A stretch of DNA of 64,000 bases from Halarcobacter sp. (GCA_030145305.1 JAQYVX010000008.1:124001-188000); one strand, 5' to 3'. Positions 9,082 through 24,000 are shown, counted from the stretch's first letter. Notes: a model not told the origin generated them from the sequence alone. Made by a program: numbers and translations.

Positions 9082-10203
9082 ATGAAAATAACAAAAATTG
9101 TAAGTGCTTTAGCACTAAGTGCCGCGGTATCTACTTCATTAATTGCAGCTGATACAGTGAAAATTGGTGTTCAAGCACCTATTACAGGAAAATATGCAAA
9201 TGAGGGACAAAGTATTGATAACTTTGTTAAGCTAATTGTTGATGAAAAGAATGCGGAAGGTGGTCTTTTAGGTAAACAAATTGAAGTTGTTACTTGTGAT
9301 GATGAAGCAAAAGCTCAAAAAGCAGCAGTATGTGCTAAAAAATTAGTAAATGAAGGTGTTTTTGCAGTAATTGGTTCATATACTTCAGGAGCAACACAAG
9401 CTGCTCAAACTACTTACTACAGAAATAAAGTATTACAAACTTCTGATGGTACATCTGATGATTTAATCAAGAAAAAATATTGGACATTCTTTAGAAATTC
9501 ATTTCCGAACTCATCTCAAAGTGATTTTACAGCAGAGTACATGGTAAATGTTAAAAAATATAAAAATATTGTAGTTTTATCTGATTATTCTTCGTATTCT
9601 GAAGGATTAGGAGATGCAACTGAAGCTTCAGTTAAAGCACTTGGCGGAAATGTTGTATTTAGAGGTAAACTTAAATCAGGAACTCAAAACTTTACAGCTA
9701 CTCTTACAAAAATAAAAGCAATGAACCCAGATGTAATTTATTACTCAGGTTATTATACTGATGGTGGACTTTTAAGAGCTCAACAAAAACAATTACGAAT
9801 TGATGCTGACTTTGTTGGTGGTGATTCAAATGACAACCCTGACTTTTATAAATTAGCAGGAAAATCTGCAGAAGGTACAGTTTTAATTAACTTTCCTACT
9901 CCAGAAATTTTACCATACCCAGAAGCTAAAAAATATTTAGCAGCATACAAAGCAAGATTTAAAATGGATCCTCCATCAATCTGGCCTGTTACTAATGCTG
10001 ATGGATTAAGAGCAGTTATTGAAGGTGTTGAAAAAACAAAATCTTTTGATACTAAAAAAATTGCTGAGTATGTTAGAACAATGAAAGATTTCCCAGGAAT
10101 TACTGGACCTTTTAACATTAGAGAAGATGGTGAAAGAGTAGGTGCTAAGTTTGTTGTTTATAAAATGGCAAATGATGGTACAAAAAAAGTAGTTAGCGAA
10201 TAA
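9082..10203 (+). CDS. LIV/HAAT-type amino-acid ABC transporter substrate-binding protein
   Basis: 373 residues with a Sec signal peptide (basic MKITK, hydrophobic core, cleavage near SLIAA|D). The mature protein is a type I periplasmic-binding fold of the LivJ/LivK (Peripla_BP_6) family: KIGVQAPITGKYANEGQS, an AVIGSYTSGAT ligand-pocket loop, and two lobes around DVIYYSGYYTDG. AAGGAG precedes the ATG. It heads a five-gene importer operon (SBP, two permeases, two ATPases) directly followed by proline-catabolic putA. The ligand could be proline or another amino acid rather than Leu/Ile/Val; the sequence alone cannot tell. Confidence 0.88.
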   Translation: MKITKIVSALALSAAVSTSLIAADTVKIGVQAPITGKYANEGQSIDNFVKLIVDEKNAEGGLLGKQIEVVTCDDEAKAQKAAVCAKKLVNEGVFAVIGSYTSGATQAAQTTYYRNKVLQTSDGTSDDLIKKKYWTFFRNSFPNSSQSDFTAEYMVNVKKYKNIVVLSDYSSYSEGLGDATEASVKALGGNVVFRGKLKSGTQNFTATLTKIKAMNPDVIYYSGYYTDGGLLRAQQKQLRIDADFVGGDSNDNPDFYKLAGKSAEGTVLINFPTPEILPYPEAKKYLAAYKARFKMDPPSIWPVTNADGLRAVIEGVEKTKSFDTKKIAEYVRTMKDFPGITGPFNIREDGERVGAKFVVYKMANDGTKKVVSE

Positions 10204-10219
10204 TAAAAGGCAATAAAGA

Positions 10220-11122
10220 ATGGATACTTTTCTTCAACAGTTAATAAATGGTTTAACAGTAGGAAGTTTATATGCATTAGTGGCTTTAGGTTATACGATG
10301 GTTTACGGTGTGATGAAGTTAATAAACTTCGCACACGGTGACCTTGTTGCCTTTTCTGCTTATGTAGGACTTACTATTTTTACTCAATTTTATGGTTCAA
10401 ATGCCTTGTCTTTAGTGAATATTGTAATAGTATTTTCTCTAACAGCAATTATTGTGGCTTTTATAGGTGTTCTTCTTGAGCGTCTGGCTTATAGGCCTTT
10501 AAGAACGGCACCAAGACTTAGTGCTGTAGTTTCAGCACTTGGAGCTTCATTAGTAATTCAAAATGGAATTATGTTAATTTGGGGTCCAAATATGGAAATT
10601 TTTCCAGCTAACGTATTCCCAAGTACATCTTGGAATTTTGGTGGAGTGATTATTTCTTTTACGCAATTGGTAATTTTAGCATTATCAGCTGTTTTAATGG
10701 TTTCTCTTTATATTTTTATTAATAAAACAAAAATGGGTACAGCAATAAGAGCAACTGCAATAGATCAAGATGCAGCAAAACTTATGGGTATTAATGTAAA
10801 TAGAATTATTATGATTATCTTTATTGTAGGTTCTATGCTTGGAGCAATTGGTGGATTATTCATTGGTATGTACTATAGAGGTCTTACTTTTGATATGGGT
10901 TGGCTTTATGGTTTAAATGCTTTTATTGCAGCAATTATTGGTGGAATTGGTTCTATTCCAGGAGCAATGCTTGGTGGACTTTTACTTGGATTATTTAATG
11001 CAATGATTTCAGGTTATATATCAACAGAATGGGCTGAAACATTTACATTTATATTATTGATTATAATTTTAATTGTAAAACCTACAGGTCTTCTTGGTGA
11101 AAAAACGGCGGAGAAAGTATAA
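10220..11122 (+). CDS. livH: HAAT-family ABC permease, LivH type
   Basis: 300 residues with about eight membrane helices and the LivH landmark near the N-terminus (INGLTVGSLYALVALGYTMVYG followed by KLINFAHGDL). The conserved coupling segment is TAIDQDAAKLMGINVNRI. It forms the channel with the next gene product, which starts inside its stop (TAATG). It lies 16 nt after the binding-protein gene. Confidence 0.9.
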   Translation: MDTFLQQLINGLTVGSLYALVALGYTMVYGVMKLINFAHGDLVAFSAYVGLTIFTQFYGSNALSLVNIVIVFSLTAIIVAFIGVLLERLAYRPLRTAPRLSAVVSALGASLVIQNGIMLIWGPNMEIFPANVFPSTSWNFGGVIISFTQLVILALSAVLMVSLYIFINKTKMGTAIRATAIDQDAAKLMGINVNRIIMIIFIVGSMLGAIGGLFIGMYYRGLTFDMGWLYGLNAFIAAIIGGIGSIPGAMLGGLLLGLFNAMISGYISTEWAETFTFILLIIILIVKPTGLLGEKTAEKV

Positions 11123-12087
11123 TGAATAAAACTACAATAATCGCTACATTATTTATAGTAGTAATGGCAGTTTTTCCATTTATTGTTGATTCTGCTTGGT
11201 TAAGTATTGGTATTACATTTTTAGTATTTGCAGTTGTTGCTTTTTCACAAGATATTATTTTAGGTCGTGCTGGTATTTTTAATATGGGGCACGCAATATT
11301 CTTTGGAATGGGAGCTTATACAACAGCAATTTTAAATGTACATTTTGGATTAGAAATTATTGCAACAATTCCCTTTGCAATTATTATTCCAGTGATATTT
11401 TCAATATTACTTGCAGGTCCAATAATTCACCTAAGAGGTGATTATTTATTAGTGGCAACAATTGGATTTAATATTATTTTTGAACAAGTTTTATCAAATG
11501 ATGTATTTGGTTTAACAGGTGGCCCAAATGGTATTTTTGGTATTGATGTATTTAGAGTATTTGGTTATGAATTATTTTCTGATACTTCAATTTATTATTT
11601 AGCATATGGTTTATTAGTTGTTACATTATTGATTATTAGAAATTTAGATACGTCAGCTTATGGTAGAGCTTTATATTATATTCATAAAGATGAAATAGCT
11701 GCTAAATCTATGGGAATAAATGTTTCATATTACAAACTATTTGCCTTTGCTTTAGGAGCTGCTATTGCAGGTGCTGCTGGTTCAGTTTTTGCTATTCAGT
11801 ATTCAGCTGTAAGTCCAGAGTCATTTAACTTTATGCAATCAGTTATGTTCTTTGCTATTGTTCTTGTTGGTGGGTCAGCTTCATTACCTGGAATTATTAT
11901 AGGAACATTTGTAATGTTTGTATTACCAGAGTTATTTACCGAATTTAAAGAATCAAGATACTTAATCTTTGGTGCTGCTATGGTATTAACTATGATTTTA
12001 AGACCAAATGGTGTTTGGCCAGTAAAATTTGGAAATATCCCACGATTCTTGAAAAAGAAAGCGGCTAAAGAAAGAGAGGCGAAATAA
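11122..12087 (+). CDS. livM: HAAT-family ABC permease, LivM type
   Basis: 321 residues, about nine membrane helices, with LivM landmarks DIILGRAGIFNMGHAIFFGMGAY and the coupling loop IHKDEIAAKSMGINVSYYK. A basic C-terminal tail (PRFLKKKAAKEREAK) follows the last helix. Start and stop both share bases with their neighbours as TAATG, indicating strict co-translation with livH and livG. Confidence 0.9.
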   Translation: MNKTTIIATLFIVVMAVFPFIVDSAWLSIGITFLVFAVVAFSQDIILGRAGIFNMGHAIFFGMGAYTTAILNVHFGLEIIATIPFAIIIPVIFSILLAGPIIHLRGDYLLVATIGFNIIFEQVLSNDVFGLTGGPNGIFGIDVFRVFGYELFSDTSIYYLAYGLLVVTLLIIRNLDTSAYGRALYYIHKDEIAAKSMGINVSYYKLFAFALGAAIAGAAGSVFAIQYSAVSPESFNFMQSVMFFAIVLVGGSASLPGIIIGTFVMFVLPELFTEFKESRYLIFGAAMVLTMILRPNGVWPVKFGNIPRFLKKKAAKEREAK

Positions 12088-12872
12088 TGGAATATGTATT
12101 AGAAATTGAAAATGTTTCAAAGTTTTTCCATGGTTTGGTTGCAATTGATGATTTAACTATTAAAGTTAAACCTGGTCAAATTTATGGAATCATTGGTCCA
12201 AATGGAGCAGGGAAAACGACATTATTTAACTGTGTGACAGGTATTTATACTCCTGAGGAAGGAACTATTAAATACAAAGGTGAAAATATTACGGGAATGG
12301 AACCTCATAAAATTGCTCAAAGAGGAGTTTTAAGAACATTTCAAAATATTAGACTTTTTAAAGAGATGAGTGTTGCTGAAAATATTATTGCAGGAACGCA
12401 CACCAAATCGAATCAAAAATGGTACCACTCGATTGTCCATACTCCTGCATATAGAGCAGATGAGAAAAAGCATTGGAAAAAAGTAGAAGAGTTAATGGAT
12501 TTTTTTAGTTTAACAAAATATGCGGCAACTCCAGCAGGAGATTTATCATATGGAAACCAACGAAAAATTGAGATGGCAAGAGCGCTTGCAGCGGATCCTG
12601 AAATTTTAATTTTAGATGAACCAGCTGCTGGGCTTAATGAAAATGAAACAATTGAGTTAACAAATATCATTTTAAAGATTAAAGAAATGGGTCTTGGAAT
12701 TATGATGATTGAACATGATATGGATATGGTTATGAAATTAACTGATTATATCACTGTTATCAATTTTGGTAAAGAAATTTCACAAGGACTTCCTTCTTTT
12801 GTACAAAGTGATCCAAAAGTTATTGAAGCTTATATTGGAACAGATGACGATGATGAAGAAGAGGATAAATAA
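12087..12872 (+). CDS. livG: HAAT-family ABC ATPase, LivG type
   Basis: 261 residues. Walker A GPNGAGKTT, Q-loop in TFQNIRLFKEMSV, signature LSYGNQRK (the usual LivG variant of LSGGQ), Walker B ILILDEPAAGLN and switch His in IEHDMD. The C-terminus is strongly acidic (IGTDDDDEEEDK). It works with LivF on the two permeases. It overlaps livM and livF by one base each. Confidence 0.92.
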   Translation: MEYVLEIENVSKFFHGLVAIDDLTIKVKPGQIYGIIGPNGAGKTTLFNCVTGIYTPEEGTIKYKGENITGMEPHKIAQRGVLRTFQNIRLFKEMSVAENIIAGTHTKSNQKWYHSIVHTPAYRADEKKHWKKVEELMDFFSLTKYAATPAGDLSYGNQRKIEMARALAADPEILILDEPAAGLNENETIELTNIILKIKEMGLGIMMIEHDMDMVMKLTDYITVINFGKEISQGLPSFVQSDPKVIEAYIGTDDDDEEEDK

Positions 12873-13594
12873 TGATTAATAATGAAATATTATTGGATAT
12901 AAAAGACCTTCATGTATCATATGGAGCAATTGAGGCTATTAAAGGTATCTCTTTACATGTTAAAAGAGGTGAAGTTGTAACAATATTAGGTGCAAATGGT
13001 TCAGGTAAAACAACTACTTTACAGACTATTTCTGGACTTTTAAAAGCAAAAGAAGGAAGTATTATTTTTGATAAAAATGATATTACAAAATGCGAAGCAC
13101 ATGATATTGTAAGTTTAGGTATGTCTCATTCTCCTGAAGGAAGACGAGTTTTTGGAATTTTAACAGTAGAAGAAAACCTTATGATGGGAGCTTATACTCT
13201 AAAAGATCATGACAAAGAGACTTTAGCTTGGATTTATGACATTTTACCAAGATTGGAAGAGAGAAAAAAACAATTAGCTGGTACATTATCAGGTGGTGAG
13301 CAACAAATGCTTGCAATTGGAAGAGCTATTATGTCAAAACCAAAGCTTCTAATTTTGGATGAGCCAAGTTTAGGTTTAGCACCAATTTTAATAAAAGCTA
13401 TATTTAAAGCGGTAAAAACAATTGCACAAAGTGGAGTTACAGTTTTATTAGTAGAACAAAATGCCAAAGCAGCACTTAAACTTGCTGACCGTGCATATGT
13501 GCTAGAAGTTGGAAAAATAACACATGAGGGAACAGCAGAAGAATTGTTAAATTCAGAAACAATTCAAGAAGCTTATTTAGGTAAAAAACACTAA
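12872..13594 (+). CDS. livF: HAAT-family ABC ATPase, LivF type
   Basis: 240 residues with Walker A GANGSGKTT, signature LSGGEQQM, Walker B LLILDEPSLGLAP and a VEQNAK motif where the switch His region lies, as is normal for LivF (Gln in place of the His-Asp pair). Last gene of the importer operon; putA starts 135 nt downstream on the same strand. Confidence 0.92.
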   Translation: MINNEILLDIKDLHVSYGAIEAIKGISLHVKRGEVVTILGANGSGKTTTLQTISGLLKAKEGSIIFDKNDITKCEAHDIVSLGMSHSPEGRRVFGILTVEENLMMGAYTLKDHDKETLAWIYDILPRLEERKKQLAGTLSGGEQQMLAIGRAIMSKPKLLILDEPSLGLAPILIKAIFKAVKTIAQSGVTVLLVEQNAKAALKLADRAYVLEVGKITHEGTAEELLNSETIQEAYLGKKH

Positions 13595-19076: not shown

Positions 19077-19119
19077 AAAAAAGGGAGAATATTAAAATTA
19101 AAATATTCTTCCCTTTTTT
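19077..19119. terminator. Bidirectional terminator
   Basis: A-rich arm plus GGGAGAATATT (to 19093) pairs with AATATTCTTCCC plus T-run (19102-19119), with one bulged base. It serves the GltB-like gene and the converging nnrS gene. Confidence 0.85.
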
Positions 19120-19122
19120 ATT

Positions 19123-20391
19123 TTAACCTTTTATCCCATCTGCTCGGGGATTTAATAAAAAGCTATAAAATACTTTTATATATATAATAAATGGAAGCGA
19201 CCAAAATATAGAAGAGTAAAGATATAGTTCACTTGTGTAACTCTCAAAAAATGGTATTAAACTTCTCATTAATGTAGCAAGAACTATAAAGAAAACCATC
19301 ATATTTGTATAGATATTTACAGTTAAATGCCTTCCTGAATGAATATATCCAATTATTATCATAATAATTAAATAAGATAATCCTATTCCTCCACTAGTAA
19401 TAAAGTGTCTAAAATGATTAAGTCCGTAAATATTATCATTTAATATATCCCAAGCCATTAATCCATATCCTAAACTTAACATAATTGGAATTAGTGCTAA
19501 ATATATTACATAAGCTTGATTTAGTATGAATTTTTCTTTTAGAATATAATCACTTGTAAGTGCTAATATTGAAGCAGCCGTTGCAAGTCCAATCCAGCCT
19601 AAAGCACTATTTTGTGGATATAAAAATTCAACAATTGTAAAAATGCTTACACAAAAAATAGCTAAATTTGTTAAAGGCGGTCTTGATATATAAATATCAT
19701 CAATCCCTTTATCTTCCATAAGTTCATTTACAGCTTCCATATTTACTCGTCTTAAGGCTAATAAAATTAAGATAACTATTGTACCAACTGCTACTGTTAG
19801 TATTGAAAGTCCATCAGTACTTGCATATCCTAGTTTTGATGCAAAAAACCATACTTCTACTGCTAAAATTATAATAAGGCTATAACCTAAACTAGCATGT
19901 CTTTGAAGTGGATCTAATACTGCATCTTTTGCAAACCATAATAACCAAAGAAGCATTCCAATATTTAAAATTGCAGTTAGCCAAATACCTGTTATATCAA
20001 TTGTCCAAAAACTAATACGACTTAGAATCCATAATATAACTATAATTTTTAATCTTCGTCCAACAAAAGGAACCATTCCTGGAAAAAGCTCAGGTATTCC
20101 TGTTGTTAAAAATGCCATAACACCAGCTGTTAATATACCAAATAACATTTCATAAATATGCCAAGTTAATATGTCATTCATAAAAGGAATTGCTAAAATT
20201 CCACTCCAAACTAATCCCCATAATATCATCGAAATAACCATATAAGGAGCTAACAATAAAAAAATAGGTCTAAATCCATATGCTAAATAAGGAGGTATAT
20301 CTTTTTCATCAGGATAATACATATAGTGATTTGTTGCATGTAAAGGCTGTTCTTTATTTTCTATATTATTTTTATGTAATTCATTTGCCAT
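19123..20391 (-). CDS. NnrS-family multi-pass membrane protein
   Basis: 422 residues with about twelve membrane helices. NnrS landmarks are visible: GFRPIFLLL near the N-terminus, WHIYEMLFG after helix 2, FLTTGIPELFPG, and a C-terminal HFRHFITSGGIG ... HSGRHL. NnrS proteins are haem/copper membrane proteins linked to nitric oxide tolerance and nitrogen-oxide respiration. The usual WHxHE motif here has Tyr in place of the second His, so metal ligation may differ. Its ATG shares one base with the stop of the ABC ATPase gene (TAATG). It is therefore the last gene of an ABC operon whose permease start carries a Fur-like box, an unusual context for NnrS. Confidence 0.85.
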   Translation of the reverse strand: MANELHKNNIENKEQPLHATNHYMYYPDEKDIPPYLAYGFRPIFLLLAPYMVISMILWGLVWSGILAIPFMNDILTWHIYEMLFGILTAGVMAFLTTGIPELFPGMVPFVGRRLKIIVILWILSRISFWTIDITGIWLTAILNIGMLLWLLWFAKDAVLDPLQRHASLGYSLIIILAVEVWFFASKLGYASTDGLSILTVAVGTIVILILLALRRVNMEAVNELMEDKGIDDIYISRPPLTNLAIFCVSIFTIVEFLYPQNSALGWIGLATAASILALTSDYILKEKFILNQAYVIYLALIPIMLSLGYGLMAWDILNDNIYGLNHFRHFITSGGIGLSYLIIMIIIGYIHSGRHLTVNIYTNMMVFFIVLATLMRSLIPFFESYTSELYLYSSIFWSLPFIIYIKVFYSFLLNPRADGIKG

Positions 20392-21155
20392 TATTTAAAT
20401 CCTATTCCTTGTAATTCAAAAGTATTTATTATTGTTTCATCTTGTAATATTTTTGCAGTTTCATTATAAACAAATTTATCATCTCTATTTTCTTGTGTTA
20501 AATCAAAAGTAAATTCTTTTATTATGTGTCCCGGGTCCGCTTCAAGTAAAAGTATTTTATCACTTAGTCTAATTGCTTCCATTAAATCATGAGTAATAAA
20601 TAAAATAGTTAGATTTTTTTCTTTTACCATTTTTATTAGATGTGTTTGTAACTCCATTTTAAGTCCAATATCTAAAGCAGAAAAAGGCTCATCTAAAAAA
20701 AGTAGAGAGGGTTCAACTACTAAAGCTCTTGCAAAGCTAACTCTTTGTTTCATCCCGCCACTTAAATCTTTTGGAAACTTAGTAAAATCTTCTTTTTCTA
20801 AACCAAACTTAAGAGCAATATCTTCTGACATTTTTCTTGCAATATTTTTTGTAATCCCTTTTGCTAATAGTCCAAGTGCGATATTATCTATAACATTTTT
20901 CCAAGGTAAAAGTCTTGCTTCTTGAAAAGCAAAAGCTGCGCTTGTAAAACTGTTTTTAATATTGCCTTCTTCTACATCAAGAAGATTTGCACATAAATGC
21001 ATCAAAGTAGTTTTTCCACCACCTGAAGGCCCAACTACTGACAAAACTTCACCTTTGTTTATAGAAAAATTTATATTTTTTAGTATTTGTGTAAAACCAA
21101 AGCTATGATTTAATCTTTCTACTTCTAGACTTTCTACTTCTTCTAGCTTCGCCAT
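20391..21155 (-). CDS. ABC transporter ATPase, nitrate/sulfonate/taurine (NrtCD/SsuB/TauB) type
   Basis: 254 residues. Walker A GPSGGGKTT, Q-loop FAFQEARLLPWKNV (the LLPW motif is typical of this subfamily), signature LSGGMKQR, Walker B LLFLDEPFSALD and switch His in FITHDLMEA. It overlaps the permease gene by 13 nt and shares a base with nnrS. The family imports anions, thiamine-pyrimidine-like molecules and some metal chelates; the substrate here is unknown. Confidence 0.9.
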   Translation of the reverse strand: MAKLEEVESLEVERLNHSFGFTQILKNINFSINKGEVLSVVGPSGGGKTTLMHLCANLLDVEEGNIKNSFTSAAFAFQEARLLPWKNVIDNIALGLLAKGITKNIARKMSEDIALKFGLEKEDFTKFPKDLSGGMKQRVSFARALVVEPSLLFLDEPFSALDIGLKMELQTHLIKMVKEKNLTILFITHDLMEAIRLSDKILLLEADPGHIIKEFTFDLTQENRDDKFVYNETAKILQDETIINTFELQGIGFK

Positions 21156-21925
21156 AATTCAACCTCTCTTTTAATTGGTTCTAAAATAATATATTCGATA
21201 AACATTAAAGAGCCAATCATAATTGTAACCAAGGCTAAAGCTGTAGGCGTATCTAACTGACTTCTAGCAACGGCTAGAGAAGCACCAATTCCATTAGAAG
21301 TTGCAAGTAATTCAGCCATAATAACTATCTTCCAAGCCATGCCAAGTGCACTTACCCAAGCTGGAAAAATATAAGAAAAAATATGTGGGAAATATATATC
21401 TATAAATTTCATATGCCAAGGTAGATTAAAACTTTTAGCCATCTCTTGCAAATCACCCTCTAAAGTTCTTGTTCCTTGTAAAGCCCCTACAAAAATGATA
21501 GGAAAAGAAGCTATTATAACTGTAAAGATAACTGTTTCATCTCCCATTCCAAACCAAATCATTGCTAAAACTATCCAAGCAATTGGTGGCATACCCATTA
21601 AAATTGTAACAATAGGGCGACTCATCATTGAAGCAGTTGCAAAGAAACCTGCAAGAAGTCCTAAAATAGAACCAAAAAGCAAGGAACTTCCAAATCCAAC
21701 TGCGGCACGATATAAAGTAGTTTTTATTTCTTGGATTACTAACTCATCTTGAAGCATCAAAAATAATGTCTGAAAAGTTTCTAAAGGTGAAGGGAGTACT
21801 AAGTTTCCATAAATTTGGTTTCCTACATCCCATGTAGCAATAAATAAAAAGATTGAAGCAATTGCTCCCCATCCACTCCATAAATATGCGGGAAAATCTT
21901 TTAATATTTTTAATATAAAATTCAC
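21143..21925 (-). CDS. ABC transporter permease, SsuC/TauC type
   Basis: 260 residues, about six membrane helices. The conserved coupling loop of the family reads EGDLQEMAKSFNLPWHMKFIDIYFPHIFSY-like (split here to its key part EMAKSFNLPW). The start is GTG 21925 with AAGGA 6-7 nt upstream. A near-perfect Fur box lies 34-46 nt before the start. It is first of the permease-ATPase-NnrS transcription unit. Confidence 0.9.
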   Translation of the reverse strand: MNFILKILKDFPAYLWSGWGAIASIFLFIATWDVGNQIYGNLVLPSPLETFQTLFLMLQDELVIQEIKTTLYRAAVGFGSSLLFGSILGLLAGFFATASMMSRPIVTILMGMPPIAWIVLAMIWFGMGDETVIFTVIIASFPIIFVGALQGTRTLEGDLQEMAKSFNLPWHMKFIDIYFPHIFSYIFPAWVSALGMAWKIVIMAELLATSNGIGASLAVARSQLDTPTALALVTIMIGSLMFIEYIILEPIKREVELWRS

Positions 21926-21958
21926 TAAAAATCCTTAGTTTAAAGTTTAATAATTATT

Positions 21959-21971
21959 AATGATAATCATT
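21959..21971. promoter_or_regulatory. Fur box before the ABC permease / NnrS operon
   Basis: AATGATAATCATT is a perfect 6-1-6 palindrome and identical to the central 13 bases of the classic 19-bp Fur consensus. It lies just upstream of the GTG start at 21925, where bound Fur would block transcription. This predicts iron repression of permease, ATPase and nnrS. Confidence 0.75.
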
Positions 21972-22029
21972 CTTATAATCTTATCTAAAGATTTTATTTC
22001 ATTCCTTGATTAAAATCAATATAATATTA

Positions 22030-22443
22030 TTATGAATAAAACATAATTTGAGAAAGTATAACAATAGAAATCATCAAACTAAAATACATATAATGGAAAA
22101 GAGGTGAAAACCAAGAAAAATGATTAAATTTATTCATAATTATTGGTACAAAATAAAAAGTAAGAGCAACTATTAATCCCATAAGAGCTTTAATACTCAA
22201 TAATAGGATAGACTTTTCAATATAGAAACTAAATAAATAAAGACCAGTAAATATAAGAAAAATATTATTAATTTTTATAATATTTCTTGCTTTTGTTCCT
22301 ATCAAAATATCTATATTTTTATAAACACCTTTACTATAGGTATTTTTTAATACAGGCATTATGAATGTTCTAAAACTCACAACACCTATAAAAAATATAG
22401 CTGATAAAATATGTATAATTTTGGCTGTAATGAATAATGACAT
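22030..22443 (-). CDS. Small four-helix membrane protein
   Basis: 137 residues with four hydrophobic helices (about 5-25, 52-72, 78-99, 112-134). The N-terminal IIHILSAIFFIGVVSF resembles CopD-like and DUF2269-like membrane proteins, several of which bind haem or copper through a His at the start of helix 1; this resemblance is weak. It starts 3 nt after the substrate-binding-protein stop without a clear ribosome site, so it is probably coupled to it. A role as accessory membrane subunit of the importer is inferred. Confidence 0.6.
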   Translation of the reverse strand: MSLFITAKIIHILSAIFFIGVVSFRTFIMPVLKNTYSKGVYKNIDILIGTKARNIIKINNIFLIFTGLYLFSFYIEKSILLLSIKALMGLIVALTFYFVPIIMNKFNHFSWFSPLFHYMYFSLMISIVILSQIMFYS

Positions 22444-22446
22444 AAT

Positions 22447-23424
22447 TTAAAAATAAAAGTTATTCTTAGGTAGTTTCCCACCTATTGTTTTAGGATTATT
22501 CTTTTCTAATAATTTATAAAAAAATTCCAAATCTTTTTTCGCATCTTTTGCTTGTACTGTATTAAGTTGTACATATTTAATACTTTCTTCTACTCCTTGT
22601 TCATCAAGCATTGGTATTTTTTCTACAACAATTTTAGCAGCTTTTTTAGGATTATTTTTATACCAATTTAATGATTTTTTATACTCTTCATTAAATCTTT
22701 TAATTACTTTTTCATTTGAAATCATTTTTCCAATAACTGCAATTCCTGCTTGTGGAATTTTTGATTCAACTTTAAATGTTTTTCCCCATTCTTTTTGTAA
22801 ATCAGTGCTTCTATATAAATCTGGGGCAAGAAGTTTTAGAGGAAAAGAACCTGTTTTTTTTAAAGCAATTGAAATTGCTGGTTCTGCTAATAAAGCATGA
22901 TCTACTTGTCTTAAAATTAAATTTTGCATTGCGTCAAATGGATTACTCATATATTTTAATTTAAAATCTTTTTTAGGATCCATGCCTTGCGCCTTTACAA
23001 GTTCTTCAAATATAATATCTGGCATATCAGCACGAAAAGGCATTGCTATTTCTTTCCCTTTAAAATCAGCAAGTGTTTTAAGTGTTTTGTCTCTTGTTAT
23101 CATTCCTAAAATTCCCCAAACTGAAACATTTAAAAGTTTTATATCCACCCCTTTATTATGAAGGTTTGCAGCTACATTTGTAGGGACTGCTATGAAATCT
23201 GCTCTATTTCTTAATGTTAAAGCTCTTAATTCATCTGGATTTTTCCATAATTTAAATTCGACTTTTTTAGCGACATCATTTAAAGCACCTGATTCGACCA
23301 TATGTATAAGAGGATGAGATACTGATGCTACTGGACCACTTAATATTATTTTTTCTAATTTTTCTTCTGCATTTATATTTATGCAAAAAAGTAAAGCACT
23401 TAAAGTTAATACAATTTTTACCAT
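22447..23424 (-). CDS. NrtA/SsuA/ThiY-like ABC substrate-binding protein
   Basis: 325 residues with a signal peptide (MVKIVLTLSALLFCININAEE). The mature part is a type II binding-protein fold: KIILSGPVASVSHPLIHMVESG, RADFIAVPTNVAANLHNKG, LADFKGKEIAMPFRADMPD and LLAEPAIS are segments typical of the nitrate/sulfonate/thiamine-precursor class. AAAGGA precedes the start. Two Fur-like palindromes lie in the upstream intergenic region. The ligand is unknown; iron control hints at a metal chelate or a haem/iron-related small molecule. Confidence 0.85.
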   Translation of the reverse strand: MVKIVLTLSALLFCININAEEKLEKIILSGPVASVSHPLIHMVESGALNDVAKKVEFKLWKNPDELRALTLRNRADFIAVPTNVAANLHNKGVDIKLLNVSVWGILGMITRDKTLKTLADFKGKEIAMPFRADMPDIIFEELVKAQGMDPKKDFKLKYMSNPFDAMQNLILRQVDHALLAEPAISIALKKTGSFPLKLLAPDLYRSTDLQKEWGKTFKVESKIPQAGIAVIGKMISNEKVIKRFNEEYKKSLNWYKNNPKKAAKIVVEKIPMLDEQGVEESIKYVQLNTVQAKDAKKDLEFFYKLLEKNNPKTIGGKLPKNNFYF

Positions 23425-23482
23425 TTTTTAATCCTTTGTTTTTGAATACTAATACAAAACATCTTAATTTATATTTAATTCT

Positions 23483-23495
23483 AATAATGATTATT
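23483..23495. promoter_or_regulatory. Fur-like palindrome upstream of the binding-protein gene
   Basis: AATAAT-G-ATTATT, a perfect 6-1-6 inverted repeat, 59-71 nt before the start at 23424. It matches 10 of 13 core Fur positions. Weaker than the box at 21959. Confidence 0.5.
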
Positions 23496-23541
23496 GAAAT
23501 TATATAGAATTAAGTAAACTATTGTTAATATTCATTTTGAG

Positions 23542-23554
23542 ATTGATTATCAAT
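23542..23554. promoter_or_regulatory. Fur-like palindrome upstream of the small rightward genes
   Basis: ATTGAT-T-ATCAAT, a perfect 6-1-6 inverted repeat, 28-40 nt before the ATG at 23582. With the box at 23483 it would allow coordinated control of the divergent genes. Confidence 0.5.
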
Positions 23555-23581: not shown

Positions 23582-23671
23582 ATGTATAAATATGAGATTA
23601 TTAATATGGATGAGTTACAAAAGAAATGGAATATTATTAGAGAAAAAGAGAAATTAAAGGATAAAAAATGA
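23582..23671 (+). CDS. 29-residue small protein
   Basis: A short frame with a good ribosome site (AGAAGGA, 6 nt spacing) and an ATGA overlap with the following gene at 23668. The product is charged and predicted helical (DELQKKWNIIREKEK), with no signal or membrane segment. Function unknown; it may be a leader that couples translation of the next gene or a small regulatory protein. The Fur-like box upstream suggests iron control. Confidence 0.55.
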   Translation: MYKYEIINMDELQKKWNIIREKEKLKDKK

Positions 23672-24000
23672 TTTTAGTAAATATAAATACAATCTTCACA
23701 AATGCAGTTTATGATAGAAAAATAGATGTTCTTGAAAAGATTTTAGCTTCGTCAGATTCAAGAATTGACTTACTTGAAGAATTTGCAGAAAAAGAAGATT
23801 TAAATTTAATTATAAAAGTATTACCAAAGTTCAAGAGTAAAGGTTTAATATTGAATATAGAAAACAACTGCAATTTAATTTTAAATAGGAATTCTTGTAA
23901 AGAAAATAAAAACAAAAACTTTAAACCTTTTATAAAAAAGCATATTCATTATGAAAATATTGAGAAAAATAAGAATAATTATTTAAGAGAAGTTAAATAG
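23668..24000 (+). CDS. Unknown 110-residue protein
   Basis: AAAGGA lies 6 nt before the ATG, which overlaps the stop of the 29-residue ORF. The first 60 residues form alternating hydrophobic and acidic helices (IDLLEEFAEKEDLNLIIKVLPKF) resembling the N-terminal part of short helical regulatory proteins. The rest is basic and Asn-rich, with two Cys and HIHYE. I do not recognise a family. It is divergent from the Fur-boxed binding-protein gene. Confidence 0.6.
   Translation: MILVNINTIFTNAVYDRKIDVLEKILASSDSRIDLLEEFAEKEDLNLIIKVLPKFKSKGLILNIENNCNLILNRNSCKENKNKNFKPFIKKHIHYENIEKNKNNYLREVK

Follow-up and report, generated by a model that had tools for sequence, protein, structure and literature searches.

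A putative iron importer of the NitT/TauT class, carrying its own type of NnrS behind Fur-type and FNR/DNR-type boxes, in Halarcobacter and its relatives

A 64,000-nucleotide stretch of Halarcobacter sp. DNA (GCA_030145305.1, JAQYVX010000008.1:124001-188000), referred to here as the window, carries on its minus strand a unit of five genes (19123-23424) for a periplasmic substrate-binding protein (SBP), a four-helix membrane protein (4TM), the permease and ATPase of an ATP-binding cassette (ABC) importer, and NnrS. We consider it fairly probable, from sequence comparisons, that this unit imports iron for cells that are short of it and that respire nitrate or encounter low oxygen or nitric oxide (NO). 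An earlier annotation made from the window alone (the first-pass annotation) had suggested an uncharacterised iron-related uptake system or an NO-sensitive iron/haem system, and the promoter boxes, the iron-related neighbours and a dedicated outer-membrane receptor in relatives, all described below, support that suggestion.

The five minus-strand open reading frames (ORFs) lie where the first-pass annotation had placed them. The SBP gene (22447-23424) encodes 325 amino acids with a signal peptide and an NMT1/SsuA fold, and is followed by the genes for the 4TM (22030-22443; 137 amino acids), the BPD_transp_1 permease (21143-21925; 260 amino acids, GTG start), the ATPase (20391-21155; 254 amino acids) and an NnrS (PF05940) of what we call the operon-type clade (19123-20391; 422 amino acids). 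Profile matches were to NMT1 for the SBP (2e-7), BPD_transp_1 for the permease (3e-16), ABC_tran for the ATPase (3e-25) and NnrS (7e-66), and the ATPase reads with intact Walker A (GPSGGGKTT), signature (LSGGMKQ) and Walker B (LLFLDEP) motifs. The permease and ATPase genes overlap by 13 nt, and because the ATPase stop and the NnrS start share the sequence TAATG, translation of NnrS is probably coupled to that of the ATPase. A hairpin terminator (19083-19112, z = -3.7) stands between NnrS and the convergent gene. SBP-4TM and permease-ATPase-NnrS are served by separate promoters, and a Fur-type box accompanies each. The five-gene order to which the first-pass annotation drew attention is present in the window but is too narrow a definition, since among relatives the 4TM is optional and the order varies.

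At the permease promoter, a candidate -10 element (TATCAT) sits inside the Fur-type box (21960-21976), and the 13-mer AATGATAATCATT (21959-21971) is the sole exact copy in 64 kb, with 0.03 expected. With two mismatches allowed, the window holds 16 copies against 14.7 expected, a chance level, and near-matches to the 17-mer over the whole genome number 18 against 16 in the control; counts from a single genome thus argue only moderately for a Fur box. Since this lack of excess ruled out counting near-consensus sites in one genome as a test, we turned to conservation and to an out-of-sample matrix. The 17-position matrix, built from 51 distinct boxes of relatives with the window and Poseidonibacter left out, gives its highest score in the window to 21960-21976 (15.2 bits, 0.1 expected per 64 kb) and its next highest to 23537-23553 (14.3 bits, 0.2 expected). 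The latter box lies just upstream of the SBP promoter, whose sigma-70-like elements (23499-23528, minus strand; TTAACA-18-TATAAT, 11/12) are the best of the region. The Fur-consensus match that had been noticed at the permease start is therefore borne out by the sole exact 13-mer and by the top matrix rank, while of the two flanking palindromes reported in the divergent region, that at 23537-23553 holds up and that at 23481-23497, next to a candidate -10, scores 8.5 bits with 6.5 expected, which is indistinguishable from chance.

The relatives supply strong further evidence. In the Arcobacteraceae a Fur-type box precedes whichever gene comes first, across varying gene orders. Box matches of at least 13/16 were found at 56% of 124 first-gene promoters versus 13% among the 546 other promoters of these loci, and at 24% of the A+T-rich promoters among those controls and 14% of internal genes; some of the promoter controls are themselves iron-gene promoters, and the loci are related and so not independent. 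The first-pass annotation had named a lack of iron control in relatives as a refuting result, and the outcome was the opposite: Arcobacteraceae, Sulfurimonas and others keep a Fur-type box ahead of the leading gene. The promoter bears a conserved box of the TGATAAT-n-ATTATCA type, the sequence mark of a Fur regulon, and its TGATA...TATCA ends presumably mark it as a site of Fur itself and not of PerR or Zur; the window genome encodes four Fur-family proteins.

Scanning for other operators, we found beside the Fur-type box of the permease promoter an FNR/DNR-type box of the Crp/Fnr family (22006-22019, minus-strand TTGATTTTAATCAA), which is absent from the first-pass annotation and is the sole exact TTGAT-N4-ATCAA in 64 kb (0.45 expected). 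The pattern TTGAY-N4-RTCAA occurs at 43 of 94 operon promoters versus 14 of 587 controls, and spacing controls with the half-sites one base closer or wider gave 1/94 and 0/94. The start of the 14-nt FNR/DNR-type box precedes that of the Fur-type box by exactly 13 nt at 30 promoters, so that the two boxes abut with one base in common; the window and its relatives in Poseidonibacter have a larger offset, 42-44 nt, which adds about three turns of the helix. The promoters so marked bear, at a fixed place, a box of the TTGA-N6-TCAA type, the sequence mark of an FNR/DNR-type Crp/Fnr regulon. Misreading of a CRP/FNR site as the Fur-type box was considered and rejected, given a half-site spacing of 7 versus 4 and the presence of both boxes side by side. 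Elsewhere in the window genome, napA has an FNR/DNR-type box (TTGACTAAAGTCAA) 51 nt ahead of its open frame and the cbb3-type oxidase gene has none; 5 of 20 separate NnrS promoters have one. In six genomes a dedicated Crp/Fnr gene adjoins the operon. The protein has orthologues of at least 67% identity nowhere else in the family, its best match among bacterial regulators in the PDB is DNR, and it lacks the FNR cysteine cluster; its recognition helix contains ETLSR, which we take to be the FNR-type ExxSR recognition motif.

The importer set is present in 56 of 104 Arcobacteraceae genomes and, at a looser profile threshold, in 96 of 397 genomes drawn from the whole phylum. In one collection there are 373 relatives, which include members of Poseidonibacter, Aliarcobacter, Malaciobacter, Sulfurimonas, Sulfurovum, Thiotrichaceae and Candidatus Thiomargarita. 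Gene orders in the Arcobacteraceae include SBP-permease-ATPase-NnrS, permease-ATPase-NnrS-SBP and TonB receptor-SBP-permease-ATPase-NnrS. The relatives form two clades, the close relatives (clade 1) and a distant clade 2 of about 35% identity, mostly our family f3, and the set SBP-permease-ATPase-NnrS is kept in both. A CirA/FepA-like TonB receptor occurs in 36 Arcobacteraceae genomes, every one of which is among the 56 with the SBP (hypergeometric 7e-14, uncorrected for kinship); since receptor and SBP are about 1 Mb apart in one genome (G028), this co-occurrence is not mere adjacency. In the PDB the receptor matches CirA and FepA best, and its matches to haem receptors are far weaker. Among the receptor neighbours that were read, no siderophore esterase or other clue to the ligand was found, and no receptor remnant was found in the window. 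The small divergent ORF of the window (23668-24000, plus strand; 110 amino acids, no family match) has a homologue between the SBP and TonB receptor genes at two loci (L034 and L046), and the window copy has the look of an orphan from the receptor side. As separate observations, an inserted ORF of about 276 amino acids splits the TonB receptor gene into halves in one Poseidonibacter genome (L033:1-3319), and at L082 the receptor is likewise in two pieces.

Genes near the relatives' loci, whose names were read from the sequence wherever they were not run against the library, include FeoA/FeoB with ferritin (L035-L037), FeoB (L083, L180), a TonB-like gene (L084), imelysin and dihaem-oxidoreductase genes (L063, L069, L073, L078), ferritin (L133, L162, L181) and a DUF2202 ferritin-like protein (L164). 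In Sulfurimonas a 315-amino-acid outer-membrane barrel lies by the SBP, with a strong Fur-type box ahead of it in 8 of the 10 loci where it precedes the SBP, and a homologue, by reading, is found in the window genome's own FeoB locus. We note that this iron island (L213:4500-13600, G000:C4) holds FeoB, DUF4198-like and LTXXQ-like genes, a 314-amino-acid outer-membrane barrel, a Fur-family gene, a DUF2202-like gene and several Fur-type boxes.

The NnrS of the window matches PF05940 over its full length (223.6 bits against a gathering cut-off of 28; profile 1-371), and an NnrS is found in 94 of the 104 Arcobacteraceae genomes. In the NnrS tree, operon-type, stand-alone and clade-2 proteins form separate clades with one change each and support of 98-100; long branches meet at the join, which is itself unsure. 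Operon-type NnrS occurs only with the importer, and the window genome has both this and the stand-alone type. The second NnrS (L216:3438-4691, G000:C77), of a different clade, stands beside MsrPQ-like and peroxiredoxin-like genes without an FNR/DNR-type box. Residues H78, H329 and H351 are invariant in all types, stand-alone included, and H22 and H165 are marks of the operon type. An AlphaFold2 model (mean predicted local distance difference test score, pLDDT, 88.4) is closest to 8smr chain E, the cbb3 oxidase subunit CcoN (template-modelling (TM) score 0.55, probability 1.00, E 0.037), and a further respiratory oxidase chain, 6adq (TM 0.52), is listed, which is suggestive of a haem-copper oxidase fold. 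Papers describe NnrS as a haem- and copper-containing protein. NnrS is reported not to remove NO but to shield the iron pool against the formation of dinitrosyl iron (PMC9246220; PMC11526790).

The AlphaFold2 model of the SBP (pLDDT 92.6) finds its best folds in 3hn0, whose ligand is unknown, and then in PqqT; the PqqT structure 9b1v, with pyrroloquinoline quinone (PQQ) and Gd3+ bound, is the closest fold with a known ligand (TM 0.74/0.81, 17% identity). Residues H37, M134, D136, E181 and P182 are invariant in both clades, and H37, R131, M134, D136 and E181 are kept in the distant L088 protein. By the secondary structure of the model, the invariant S36/H37, N83, R131/D133/M134 and E181 would lie at cleft-forming strand-to-helix turns; candidate cleft residues are H37, R131, M134, D136 and E181. 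The 4TM of the window has no Pfam or NCBIfam match at E<=0.1; its homologues, found at 11 Arcobacteraceae loci, keep H11, R25, R53, K85 and H117 invariant and show similarity to HemJ/UPF0093 below threshold (best 28.6 of 34.2 bits).

By its parts the unit belongs to the NitT/TauT class of importers (SsuABC, TauABC, NrtABC and ThiY type), with which it shares the NMT1 binding protein, the BPD_transp_1 permease and the ATPase, but it differs from them in its Fur-type and FNR/DNR-type boxes, its NnrS and the TonB receptor partners of its relatives. It reaches no nitrate, sulfonate or taurine equivalog cut-off, scoring for instance 69 of 347 bits for SsuC, 66 of 209 for NtrB and 42 of 163.5 for SsuA_fam. 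PqqT shares the fold of the SBP, and as far as we found no Fur-boxed NnrS operon accompanies it. Known NnrS proteins, associated with haem and copper, NO stress and denitrification, have PF05940 and H78, H329 and H351 in common with the window copy, which differs in forming a clade of its own, in its apparent coupling to an ABC ATPase and in standing under a Fur-type box. The CirA/FepA receptors with FepBCDG resemble the present system in Fur-type control and in the CirA/FepA-like receptor of relatives, whereas FepBCDG has Peripla_BP_2 and FecCD where the window unit has NMT1 and BPD_transp_1, and the receptor is absent from the window genome. The unit would work like a TonB/ABC iron importer, though not one of the FepBCDG type, because the families of binding protein and permease differ.

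Let us consider how such an importer might operate. Fe-Fur would repress the unit; when iron is short, Fur would leave its box, and a Crp/Fnr activator sensing anoxia or NO would switch the unit on. A ferric chelate would cross the outer membrane through the TonB receptor, or through the 315-amino-acid barrel encoded within the same Fur-type-boxed unit; the window strain, lacking a cognate receptor, would need another route. The NMT1-type SBP would catch the chelate for import by the permease and ATPase, and NnrS, as a haem-type 12-helix membrane protein, might maintain the iron in usable form, through reduction of the chelate or by blocking dinitrosyl-iron formation. We rank NnrS as an NO shield somewhat above NnrS as a reductase. 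The more specific proposal, that operon NnrS is an inner-membrane haem-based ferric-chelate reductase of the haem-copper oxidase fold within an NMT1-type importer, a novel design for iron uptake made via the composite Fur and FNR/DNR operator only at low iron and under anoxia or NO, seems to us speculative and on balance unlikely.

Several observations weigh against an iron importer. To our knowledge, no binding protein and permease of the NMT1/BPD_transp_1 class has an iron example. None of the four TonB receptors of the window genome exceeds about 28% identity to the operon type, and that genome has no orthologue of the dedicated Crp/Fnr protein. In clade 2 a clear Fur-type box is missing from most f3 loci, whose outer-membrane partner is an OprC-like barrel. 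Some Sulfurimonas SBPs have no ABC genes nearby, and the relatedness of the loci throughout means that the statistics overstate independence. With regard to these barrels, a TonB-receptor-like protein of about 540-640 amino acids is encoded upstream of the SBP at L186-L190 and L192 (f3), and those scanned are plug-less barrels related to the copper receptor OprC/NosA. With regard to the solo SBPs, we observed them at L107, L109, L110, L114, L115, L120, L122 and L127 (Sulfurimonas-type), often behind a Fur-boxed 315-amino-acid barrel; possibly they are extra binding proteins that use one common transporter.

The rival reading to be taken most seriously is that two functions share one transcript, an ordinary NO-protecting NnrS merely sharing a promoter with an iron importer and standing outside its transport machinery. 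We hold this to be a real possibility, favoured by the published role of NnrS against dinitrosyl-iron formation (PMC9246220) and by the FNR/DNR-type box at the promoters; set against it are the restriction of the separate operon-type clade to genomes with the importer, the presence of another NnrS elsewhere in the genome, and the likely translational coupling of ATPase and NnrS. Import under Fur control of another metal or cofactor, such as a copper chelate, PQQ or a similar multi-carboxylate, for use by NnrS, is in our view unlikely. The fold of PqqT with its PQQ and Gd3+, the copper reported in NnrS, and the plug-less clade-2 barrel, which matches OprC and the TonB-copper family best, though under the cut-off, speak for it, but clade 1 has a CirA/FepA-like receptor, Fur-type boxes and Feo, ferritin and imelysin neighbours. 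It may be that cargo differs between the clades, with the distant relatives that have OprC barrels carrying another metal. Still more doubtful is import of haem, a haem precursor or another porphyrin-type compound that NnrS and a HemJ-like 4TM would bind or process: the sub-threshold UPF0093 similarity of 4TM homologues, the apparent oxidase fold of NnrS with its three invariant histidines and the presence of haem-receptor families among the receptor's good NCBIfam scores, all below cut-off, are countered by the far weaker structural matches of the receptor to haem receptors than to CirA and FepA, and by the occurrence of the 4TM in only a minority of loci. Least probable, we think, is a plain nitrate, sulfonate or thiamine-precursor importer with a Fur-like promoter by accident; all three ABC parts are of the NitT/TauT class and the FNR/DNR-type box is common to napA, yet the Fur-type box follows whichever gene leads the unit and is the top-ranked site of the window under an independent matrix, a dedicated TonB receptor exists, and the equivalog scores are far under their cut-offs.

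The biochemical role of NnrS is unsettled, and papers tie the protein to shielding iron from nitric oxide; the linkage of one NnrS clade to an iron-type importer, by gene linkage across the phylum and by promoters, makes that role directly testable. If the iron-importer reading is right, a composite Fur and FNR/DNR operator would tie the iron supply of Campylobacterota to nitrate respiration, and should iron chelates prove to be the cargo of the SBP, importers of the NMT1 type would be added to the known designs of iron uptake. Campylobacterota are abundant in sulfidic and vent habitats. In the open-licence literature we found no paper on the operon or on Fur control of an NnrS with an ABC importer, a search by which subscription reports may be missed.

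Exactly the segment 19118-23555 has 85% DNA identity to the Poseidonibacter ostreae copy, whereas copies in the window's own genus have a different gene order, with about 65% identity for the SBP and about 50-65% for the proteins; because the closer match lies outside the genus, the operon was probably exchanged horizontally as a cassette. Elsewhere in the window, on the plus strand at 9082-13594, five consecutive genes are, by size, like those of a branched-chain/urea-type ABC importer and are followed by a proline-dehydrogenase-like gene.

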